DNA of 43,578 bases, taken from IMG/VR virus record IMGVR_UViG_3300044732_002014, positions 1 to 43,578 of that record; one strand, given 5' to 3'. A model generated the notes under the pieces. That model made no database searches. It saw only the letters and a program-made list of their open reading frames with translations, and was not told where the DNA came from. The position numbers were made by a program, and so were the translations under genes. The stretch's first letter is position 1, and every line of letters starts with the position of its first letter. Of this stretch, positions 30,863-43,507 are shown piece by piece. This DNA comes from a virus.

Positions 30863-31617
30863 CGGCTGAACATTTCATCGAGACGGCACGTCGGTATCTC
30901 GGCTACCGGACGTTACCTGGCGGACGGGACGACTTCTCGGCAAAGACGGGTTACAACGGGACGGGTGTTCCGTGGTCCGGATCTTTTATCGACTGTGTGG
31001 CCCGCGAGGCTGGGCTCAACATCCCGGCCTGTGTGTACAGCCCAAACGCGATAACGGAGTTCGCGTCCGACCGACGGTTCAAGTTTAAGCCTAGGCCTGG
31101 GGATATCGTCTTCTTCTCATTTTCAATGACGGGCCCGTTTGGGATGCCCCACGTCGGGATCGTGACGGATGTCAGTAGCTGGAAGGCCGACGGTACATTT
31201 ATCTCGATCGAGGCCGGAATCTCTTCAGGCCTGCCCAAGGCCTCAAAAGATAATGACGGTGTATTCGAGAGAACGCGCTGGAGATATCAGGTCATCGGGT
31301 TCGGAAGGCCGAATTTTAAAGCCAGGCCTGTAAGGGGCGCAAAAAATACAGACGGGCTGCCACTTGTGCTTGGGTCACAGGTACGTCCCGGAAAGAAGCA
31401 CCCGACAATCGAGCACGTGCAACGCGCGCTGATCGTTCACTACGACCTGAAGAATCACGAGTTCTGCCGGTTCGACGAGCGAACACAGCAGGCGTATGCT
31501 CGATTTCAACGACGTATCGGTCTCGTTGGATCCGACGCCGATGGAGTTCCGAACGAGTCAACACTTGCTCGACTCGGACGGGAGACTGGTTCGTTTTCAC
31601 TGAAGATGCAAAACTAA
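30859..31617 (+). CDS. CHAP-like endolysin with peptidoglycan-binding domain
   Basis: 252 residues. N-terminal ~145 residues are CHAP-like: GVPWSGSFIDCVAREAG, then GDIVFFSF and PHVGIVTDV (catalytic-type His). The usual Cys of PWC is Ser here, and a Cys lies five residues later (FIDC), as in some actinophage lysins. C-terminal ~90 residues are a peptidoglycan-binding domain 1 (LVLGSQVRPG ... YARFQRRIGLVG). Acts on the wall cross-peptide or amide. Start overlaps the upstream stop as ATGA. Confidence 0.82.
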   Translation: MTAEHFIETARRYLGYRTLPGGRDDFSAKTGYNGTGVPWSGSFIDCVAREAGLNIPACVYSPNAITEFASDRRFKFKPRPGDIVFFSFSMTGPFGMPHVGIVTDVSSWKADGTFISIEAGISSGLPKASKDNDGVFERTRWRYQVIGFGRPNFKARPVRGAKNTDGLPLVLGSQVRPGKKHPTIEHVQRALIVHYDLKNHEFCRFDERTQQAYARFQRRIGLVGSDADGVPNESTLARLGRETGSFSLKMQN

Positions 31618-31629
31618 AGAATATAAGAT
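31613..31629 (+). promoter_or_regulatory. 17-bp promoter element
   Basis: ACTAAAGAATATAAGAT, overlapping the lysin stop; followed by a second -10 (31667-31672) before the next gene. Confidence 0.6.
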
Positions 31630-31666
31630 ACTTCACGTTGATCACGCGTTTTGGGAAAACCCAAGA

Positions 31667-31672
31667 TATAAT
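31667..31672 (+). promoter_or_regulatory. -10 box before winged-helix gene
   Basis: GATATAATG (box TATAAT); its upstream part departs from the 17-bp consensus. SD AAAAGGA before ATG 31706. Confidence 0.6.
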
Positions 31673-31705
31673 GATCATATCAACATCAAGACAAAAGGAC
31701 TGATT

Positions 31706-32254
31706 ATGTCAAAGACCATACCGAAATACCTACAGAAGTCACTCGAGACGAGAATGGCCAAGGGTCAACAGACCCGTGACTCCATCGTGTCAATCGTCAA
31801 GGACAGTGATCAACCACTGACCATTAACGAGATCACGGTCCTCATGACAAAGTCACTCGGACGAAAGTTCGCCCGCGAATACGTCGCGGCCGTTCTCGCC
31901 GAGCTGGCGCAAGAGGGCAAGATCAGCGCACGTATCGAGACCGACGCCGAGCGTCAGTTCCGTGTCCGCAGCAACGGTCGTCCACAGGGGCGTAACTCGG
32001 TGCTGTACGCATCGAGAATCAACATTCCACGAACCCGTGCGAAGATCGTCGACGTGCCGGACTCGGTCAAGAGCCACCCTTACCACAAGTCAAAGAAGAA
32101 GAAGTCAGGCAAGGTCAAGGCCAGCGTTGTTCAGACGGCTGCCGTAAGCCCATCGCTGTACTCGCAGATCGAGCAAACCATCAAGCCGCTGTTCGATCGA
32201 ATCGAAGCGCTAGAGACAAAGCTCGCGAAGATTCACGAGATCAGCAAGCCGTAA
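31706..32254 (+). CDS. Winged-helix-like DNA-binding protein with coiled-coil end
   Basis: 182 residues. Residues ~20-75 (RDSIVSIVKDSDQPLTINEI ... VLAELAQEGKISARI) resemble a winged helix; a Lys-rich linker (~130-137, KKKKSGKVK) and a C-terminal coiled coil (IEALETKLAKIHEI) follow. Probable regulator of the array. Confidence 0.7.
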   Translation: MSKTIPKYLQKSLETRMAKGQQTRDSIVSIVKDSDQPLTINEITVLMTKSLGRKFAREYVAAVLAELAQEGKISARIETDAERQFRVRSNGRPQGRNSVLYASRINIPRTRAKIVDVPDSVKSHPYHKSKKKKSGKVKASVVQTAAVSPSLYSQIEQTIKPLFDRIEALETKLAKIHEISKP

Positions 32255-37766: not shown

Positions 37767-37973
37767 ATGACAACACTTCATTACTTCGCAGCAGACGGCA
37801 ACTATGGATCTGCCGATCAGCTCGTGATCGTCGACACCAGTGACTGGGACGTCGAAGAGTGGGATATCATTGATCAGACACCGGACAGCGATCGAGCGAT
37901 GGTTGCATTCCAGATGTCACAAGGCAAAGGCCAGATCATCGACCCAACTCAAGATCCCCTGCCGGGAATCTGA
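37767..37973 (+). CDS. Hypothetical acidic protein
   Basis: 68 residues (DTSDWDVEEWDIIDQTPDSD), strongly acidic, DNA-mimic-like charge. CCGAAAGGACA upstream. Unknown family. Confidence 0.72.
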   Translation: MTTLHYFAADGNYGSADQLVIVDTSDWDVEEWDIIDQTPDSDRAMVAFQMSQGKGQIIDPTQDPLPGI

Positions 37974-37985
37974 GGAAAGTAAAAT
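37969..37985 (+). promoter_or_regulatory. 17-bp promoter element without downstream gene
   Basis: TCTGAGGAAAGTAAAAT; followed by hairpins, not a start codon. Confidence 0.7.
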
Positions 37986-37991
37986 AAAGTC

Positions 37992-38060
37992 GAGGGTTGG
38001 AACGACCCACACCTTCCGATTATGGAAGGCCCTGGCCCAGGGTAAAAGTTCCAGGGCATC
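37992..38060 (+). ncRNA. Candidate small structured RNA 1
   Basis: Starts ~7 bases after the -10 of the orphan element. Hairpins: GGGT/ACCC (near 37993), perfect CCTTCC/GGAAGG (38012-38029) and GCCCTGG/CCAGGGC (38029-38057). Next promoter begins at 38063. No reading frame. Confidence 0.5.
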
Positions 38061-38062
38061 AA

Positions 38063-38079
38063 TCTAAAGAAAGTAAAAT
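38063..38079 (+). promoter_or_regulatory. 17-bp promoter element
   Basis: TCTAAAGAAAGTAAAAT. Confidence 0.8.
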
Positions 38080-38900: not shown

Positions 38901-39227
38901 ATGACATCAACAATCACCACGACCTCGAAGATCGAGATCATCGAAGTCATCACAGACCTGGACCCAACGATGGAAGCAATCATCGTCGAGTTCAACGAAG
39001 CCAAGGCAGCCATCAAGGCTCTCGAGGCGAAGAAGCAAGCGGCAGAGAACACTCTACGCGAGGCACTCAATGGCAACAAGATTGGCTTCATCAATGGAGT
39101 CGAGCGCGTTCGAGTCGCACATCGCAACCTGAGCAAGATCGATCGCGAGCTTCTCAAGACAGCATTCCCTGAAGCGTATGAGGCGTCGCTGGTCGAATCC
39201 TCGTACACGGTCCTTCAGGCCAAATAA
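38901..39227 (+). CDS. Coiled-coil hypothetical protein
   Basis: 108 residues; Ala/Lys/Glu-rich helix EAKAAIKALEAKKQAAENTL (~34-53). GGAAGGA site. Confidence 0.72.
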   Translation: MTSTITTTSKIEIIEVITDLDPTMEAIIVEFNEAKAAIKALEAKKQAAENTLREALNGNKIGFINGVERVRVAHRNLSKIDRELLKTAFPEAYEASLVESSYTVLQAK

Positions 39228-43297: not shown

Positions 43298-43314
43298 TCC
43301 AAAGAAAGTAAAAT
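43298..43314 (+). promoter_or_regulatory. 17-bp promoter element without downstream gene
   Basis: TCCAAAGAAAGTAAAAT; followed by a structured stretch. Confidence 0.75.
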
Positions 43315-43320
43315 GGCGAC

Positions 43321-43460
43321 ATAAGGTTTGGTTGGGTATTTACCAACCAGGAAGGTACAGGGTAATCCCTGCTAAGCAAAGCGTCCATCACGCACAAGAG
43401 CATACCGGCCATTGCGGCTGGTCCCTGCCAAGCAGGCAAGTATGAACAGCGGCCTTCCAA
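43321..43460 (+). ncRNA. Candidate structured RNA 2
   Basis: Starts ~7 bases after an orphan promoter element. Five hairpins in order: TGGTTGGGTA/TACCAACCA (43329-43349, one bulge), CAGGG/CCCTG (43358-43371), GCG/CGC (43381-43393), ACCGGCC/GGCTGGT (43404-43422, one G-T) and CCTGC/GCAGG (43424-43436); GGAAGG near 43350 can close with CCTTCC near 43453. No start codon with a ribosome site and no frame of use. Ends before the next promoter. Confidence 0.6.
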
Positions 43461-43462
43461 AT

Positions 43463-43479
43463 TCTAATGAAAGTAAGAT
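43463..43479 (+). promoter_or_regulatory. 17-bp promoter element
   Basis: TCTAATGAAAGTAAGAT. Confidence 0.75.
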
Positions 43480-43507
43480 GACGGCAAGCAACGATGAAAG
43501 GACAGCA

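Follow-up and report, generated by a model that had tools for sequence, protein, structure and literature searches.

The right arm of a phage of freshwater Actinomycetota carries a promoter that leads into a folded RNA in place of a gene. Judging from its sequence and from those of its relatives, this stretch, which we call RNA-A, is a member of a folded RNA family that had not been described before, and it is very probably a working phage RNA. Ten distinct versions were recovered with covariance models from at least 18 phage records. On balance we favour the view that the phage uses the RNA-A unit as the gene of a structured non-coding RNA, about 140 nt long, which would be folded, partner-binding and most likely trans-acting.

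The window, meaning the whole stretch of DNA that was analysed, is a 43,578-base IMG/VR record representing a fragment of a tailed phage, and two near-identical contigs continue beyond its end. Over two thirds of its length, its primase/helicase shares 84% identity with the counterpart in phage DSL-LC01, which has a genome of 129 kb, comes from Dishui Lake and has Actinomycetia as its predicted host (PMC10611076). Small genes form an array in the right arm, where the usual unit combines a CTAAAGAAAGTAWRATG-type promoter with the leader ACGAAAGGACA and an ATG; related phages employ variant promoters, CTAAAGWTGTTATAAT or CCTGATATAAT for example, in an identical layout. With up to two mismatches allowed, the consensus GAAAGTAWRATG has 39 matches in the window against 10.75 expected, a count that none of 100 shuffles reached, and all 12 of its exact matches fall within 37.1-43.5 kb of the + strand. 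At three array promoters (40448, 41061 and 42875) there is no SD and the ATG starts at the seventh base past the -10 hexamer; the genes concerned are probably expressed as leaderless mRNAs among SD-led neighbours. The RNA-A unit comprises the following features.

43299..43314, + strand: array promoter CCAAAGAAAGTAAAAT of RNA-A, with the -10 hexamer TAAAAT at 43309-43314
43321..43460, + strand: RNA-A, a predicted structured RNA of about 140 nt (the model matches 43325-43463)
43329..43349, + strand: 5' hairpin UGGUUGG/CCAACCA, directly before P1, 91.2% of cells paired
43350..43356, + strand: 5' strand of the closing stem P1, GGAAGGU, 98.6% of cells paired
43358..43371, + strand: P2 hairpin CAGGG-UAAU-CCCUG, 97.9% of cells paired, three of five pairs changed on both sides
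43371..43378, + strand: conserved junction GCUAAGCA, its first base being the last base of P2
43404..43422, + strand: P4 hairpin ACCGGCC/GGCUGGU, 92.9% of cells paired
43452..43458, + strand: 3' strand of P1, GCCUUCC, with a conserved AGCG just before it
43464..43479, + strand: next array promoter, CTAATGAAAGTAAGAT, which drives the following gene

A preliminary description had called the first of these promoters perfect. This holds for the 12-base core GAAAGTAAAATG at 43304-43315, an exact match to the consensus, but the whole 16-mer is near-perfect, its upstream half reading CCAAAG where CTAAAG is mostly found elsewhere. Since the spacing to the ATG is fixed in the three leaderless array genes, transcription of RNA-A would be expected to start at A43321, eight bases upstream of the first hairpin. 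The same description had reported about 140 bases without a usable frame followed by another promoter, and both statements were borne out. There is neither an SD-led start codon nor a leaderless ATG at the array spacing, and the next promoter, an exact match at 43469-43480, is followed by the SD GAAAGGA and then an ATG. A 1-base and a 2-base indel separate the two closest versions, those of the window and of a relative designated type 2, which a conserved frame would not tolerate; nor is any frame common to all RNA-A versions, which range from 97 to 174 nt in length. In the window, RNA-A is predicted to be the sole product of its own promoter. No U-run or other terminator-like signal follows P1, and we therefore infer that the 3' end of RNA-A is likely to be produced by processing.

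Type 2, the closest relative, is 86% identical to the window across approximately 149 nt and has its own array promoter with different flanking genes. Between the two, a U-A pair of the 5' hairpin is replaced by C-G in compensatory fashion and a C-G pair of P4 by U-G, while all remaining substitutions lie outside modelled pairs. A covariance model built from these two sequences (R1) found the version in L154, the third in the family, at an E-value of 4.1e-5, and matched L137 (E 0.022) and DSL-LC01, here L090 (E 0.33), more weakly. In DSL-LC01, RNA-A fills an unannotated gap of 211 bp that separates two coding genes. The E-values of R1 and of the later models are rough, having come from a shortened calibration. 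Model R2 added L150 (E 0.002, outside its seed) and L212:10418 (E 0.48), the latter having been detected before R2 through a search for a covarying closing stem. The L215 version was added using a neighbouring protein as bait, and model R3 contributed L162 and L175 (E 3.6e-7 and 7.6e-5, neither in the seed). Beyond the known versions, the covariance model gave no match at E <= 10 in 1.42 Mb of related phage DNA, and none in a further 0.36 Mb of primase regions from the same phage group. Whole-record searches of 50 further relatives were likewise empty, the records being short and this type of search less sensitive; the R1 whole-record search overlooked versions that cmsearch detected in identical records, and its negative results were therefore set aside. 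Searches for RNA-A by exact DNA pattern recovered two sequence types only, and neither BLAST against named phages nor a pattern scan of bacterial genomes gave RNA-A matches. A looser two-motif pattern was discarded when inspection by eye showed that it returned unrelated CCTGCCAAGC-type repeats.

Evidence that the fold is maintained comes from covariation. In the ten-version alignment, 95.5% of 202 pair cells form standard pairs, changes have occurred on both sides in 18 of 22 pairs (58 cells), and the covariation score is 0.693, compared with 0.208 after shuffling and at most 0.121 with slid partners. For remote versions the alignment had been fitted to the model, and for this reason eight versions were also aligned without structure and then folded. 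This recovered P1 with its terminal U-G and four pairs of P2, double changes being present in 7 of 13 predicted pairs, and removes the model-fitting bias for P1 and P2 only. Covariance among homologues, which had been proposed as a check on the RNA, was found, and it was confirmed on the structure-free alignment. P1, previously offered as no more than a possible closing stem, proved to be the best-supported part of the structure; five of its seven pairs show changes on both sides, one is an invariant G-C, and the stem ends in a U-G pair that is invariant in all ten versions. This pair identifies the + strand as functional, since it would become an A-C mismatch in RNA made from the other strand. 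All six modelled pairs of the 5' hairpin are changed on both sides in at least one of the ten versions. In P4 four modelled pairs are double-changed, its length is variable and three of the ten versions have a gap in its place. The junction sequence GCUAAG is present in seven versions, the other three having related UUAR forms. Conserved letters are found in the GCUAAGYA-like junction, in the AGCG that precedes P1 and at the P1 and P2 ends, whereas loops and stem sequences drift.

Five successive hairpins had been described for this stretch, and the minimum-energy fold of 43315-43466 contains exactly five, four of them enclosed by the 7-bp closing stem. As features of the family, we retain the 5' and CAGGG hairpins and, with less confidence, ACCGGCC; the other two, GCGU/ACGC (approximately 43382-43394) and CCUGC/GCAGG (approximately 43424-43436), are broken in type 2. 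The comparison with shuffled controls that had been suggested alongside was also carried out. The folding z of the RNA-A region was -2.2 for the + strand and -2.25 for the - strand, and 43321-43463 gave -3.1 (60 shuffles), yet values of -3.3 and -4.5 occur among the coding units of this array, and the result is not decisive. Because coding neighbours and the opposite strand fold equally well, folding energy was rejected as proof and dropped as evidence for RNA-A; it is covariation that sets RNA-A apart from chance.

The versions differ in their genomic context. Three of ten (the window, type 2 and L212:10418) follow an array promoter of their own with no gene, and six, which have no promoter of their own, are placed after a stop codon and ahead of the next promoter (L216/L154, L215, L090, L212:652/L137, L202/L150 and L162). 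The L175 version occupies a 5' leader, with a promoter before it and the SD and ATG of a gene after it. RNA-A is hence located directly behind a promoter in four versions and otherwise 3' of genes, and in six versions the next promoter follows within approximately 30 bases. All versions lie on the coding strand of the array. The flanking genes differ between the window and type 2 and among the further versions. RNA-A is thus a mobile module and, as the upstream genes differ, is not dedicated to a single gene; a 3' UTR role linked to one particular gene was rejected on these grounds. The original suggestion of a phage small RNA gains support from covariation, but needs qualification, in that a separate RNA gene is seen in a minority of versions and 7 of 10 lie in untranslated regions. 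Among the genes of these arms, we observed a small conserved protein of about 108 amino acids, A6, in the window (38901-39224) and in relatives; its C-terminus reads SSYTVLQAK, it matches the C-terminal end of phrog_434 (RecE-like), and it lies directly upstream of RNA-A in several phages, though not in this window.

In the reading that we favour, a host-type RNA polymerase would start at the array promoter, at or near A43321, and the transcript would fold into the 5' hairpin followed directly by a multi-branched domain closed by P1, which would contain P2, the conserved GCUAAGYA/AGCG junction and a variable P4 region. RNA-A may then act as a folded object that binds a protein, the ribosome or another fixed partner; such binding is favoured because the conserved letters sit in the junction and at the stem ends while the loops drift, and it is this pattern of conservation that suggests protein binding. 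Action in trans appears most likely, given that the neighbours differ and that some promoters serve RNA-A only. Where RNA-A lies inside a 5' or 3' untranslated region, it would either be excised or act within the transcript.

The main rival, to which we assign a clearly smaller though appreciable probability, is a cis-acting element of nascent transcripts that alters its own polymerase, in the manner of the put RNAs of phage HK022, or that stabilises or processes the transcript carrying it; from the promoter in the window, modified polymerases or transcripts would then be sent across the arm. Six promoterless versions placed after a stop codon and before the next promoter, together with one in a 5' leader directly before the SD and ATG, count against a trans-acting gene and suit a cis element. 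The independence of RNA-A from any particular gene and the absence of a terminator downstream also fit the cis reading. On the other hand, the preceding gene is already hairpin-ended in the window and at L212:10418, where a promoter separates that gene from the RNA; the positions of RNA-A are scattered in the arm and do not coincide with operon starts; and six versions have the next promoter within about 30 bases.

An antisense regulator that pairs with phage or host mRNAs is unlikely. Phage small RNAs described so far are mostly discussed as regulators of mRNAs (review PMC12197685), and 17 nt of RNA-A (43371-43387) do pair with the array leaders at a mean of -8.35 kcal/mol, compared with -5.7 kcal/mol for shuffles. 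This pairing, however, stems from the GUCC of a hairpin that is not conserved; taken by itself, the conserved 12-mer has a z of +0.6 against the array leaders, three other versions have z of +1.6 to +3.0 against their own leaders, and the loops differ among versions. No conserved unpaired seed complementary to the phage array leaders was found, and in four versions the junction has no more complementarity to these leaders than shuffles have. A DNA-level element, such as a recombination, packaging or replication site whose inverted repeats mimic RNA stems, would account for an opposite strand that folds equally well by energy and for a module that changes place among related phages. We regard it as very improbable, given that the P1 U-G invariant in 10 of 10 versions would be an A-C mismatch on the other strand, that three versions are promoter-directed and that in every version RNA-A is on the array's coding strand. 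A reading as spacer DNA or as a decaying gene, with hairpins arisen by chance, has next to nothing in its favour, for although a z of -2.2 is ordinary for this array, the fold is kept in ten versions despite changes of letters, 86% identity to type 2 extends across some 149 nt, and covariation already contradicts it.

Comparison with the covariance models of Rfam 15 (4227 families) gave no match to RNA-A, the best score (E 0.46) being to a microRNA model on the other strand and far below cut-off; the L154 version was matched by none either. The put element of phage HK022 is a short, two-hairpin RNA found just downstream of early promoters, which acts on RNA polymerase in cis. Likened to RNA-A by description only, it shares hairpins near phage promoters and the lack of an associated protein gene, but RNA-A has a closed multi-branched domain and lies mostly 3' of genes. 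The packaging RNA of phi29 (pRNA) is of similar length to RNA-A and is closed by a terminal stem; unlike pRNA, RNA-A has no Rfam match, and the related DSL-LC01 has a conventional terminase large subunit. With phage-encoded small RNAs in general (review PMC12197685), RNA-A shares a short, gene-less and promoter-driven unit in an accessory phage arm, and differs from them in its conserved multi-branched fold and junction, in the lack of a detected conserved antisense seed or Rfam match, and in the occurrence of several unrelated structured RNAs per arm. Candidate structured RNA classes that came out of comparative genomics (Weinberg et al. 2010, PMC2864571; for GOLLD, ROOL and OLE, PMC12286853) are likewise defined by covariation; GOLLD is lake-derived, as is RNA-A, and these classes were without an assigned function at discovery (PMC2864571, PMC12286853). 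RNA-A is far smaller, at about 140 nt, has no Rfam match and resides in an array of promoter units.

Four more gene-less promoter units in the arm, RNA-B to RNA-E, are conserved in type 2 and gave no matches to Rfam. They are listed here with a unit from a relative.

37970..38063, + strand: RNA-B, a three-hairpin unit, the second in the window with a promoter but no gene, lacking SD-led and leaderless ORFs alike
L006:555-654: RNA-C, gene-less unit of about 85 nt closed by AAGCGGUCCGG/CCGGGCCGCUU
L006:1333-1581: RNA-D, gene-less promoter unit of about 235 nt, approximately 1.1 kb past the window end, with further copies at L102:18122 and 21013 and at L139:6415 and 12182
L006:2270-2363 and L102:19967: RNA-E, two hairpins
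L139:11397-11561 (contig IMGVR_UViG_3300044732_003033): gene-less promoter unit with a very stable fold

RNA-B is 98.5% identical over 68 nt in type 2 and also occurs behind array promoters in more distant phages; in L125 its first hairpin shows compensation from G-C to U-A. RNA-C is 94% identical in type 2 (L102:13462). RNA-D, which is also present in more distant phages, has a long closing stem that changes in sequence and stays complementary, with 32 of 61 predicted pairs double-changed. It contains two copies each of GAUAAGGCUCU and AUCCGYCCUC(C), its C-rich segments resembling the anti-Shine-Dalgarno sequence; when bacterial genomes were searched for the double motif, 16 matches turned up, scattered among unrelated lineages and slightly above the handful that chance would give. 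The loops of RNA-E, UGGAUAAC and GUUAUCCA, are perfectly complementary, its first stem carries a compensatory change between both phages, and a kissing loop is possible. At L139:11397 the loop CCUCCUUUCGUC is exactly antisense to the array leader GACGAAAGGA, and pairing with the leaders of that phage has a mean duplex energy of -14.8 kcal/mol compared with -7.9 kcal/mol for shuffles; this unit is possibly an array-wide translation regulator.

We tentatively suggest that the arm might be a mixed array of protein and RNA genes, holding at least five unrelated structured RNAs (A-E) with their own promoters, some of which would control translation globally, and that RNA-A could be the scaffold or protein-binding member of an RNA-based takeover set. 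Were this so, the L139:11397 loop would target the common ribosome-binding leader of its phage's array, and the UCCUCC-type segments of RNA-D could capture AGGAGG sites of the host, sparing the GAAAGGA leaders of the phage.

RNA-A adds a covariation-supported family that is absent from Rfam, in a large and mostly unstudied group of phages of lake actinobacteria. Gene-less gaps in the promoter arrays of these phages, such as the 211-bp gap in DSL-LC01, are probably RNA genes left blank by annotation pipelines; furthermore, several gene-less RNAs use one promoter type across the arm, and the array therefore offers a simple guide to further ones. Through the anti-leader loop of one relative, control of phage translation by RNA becomes open to direct testing.

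Among the non-coding stretches of related arms, DSL-LC01 has a gap at L090:11455-11713 (approximately 31454-31712 of the record) that is unannotated and contains several near-copies of GACCGTSAG-type repeats. At L108:6981-7059, a 79-bp promoter unit holds only a 10-bp hairpin and a T-rich tail, and may be either a tiny RNA or a promoter-terminator pair.
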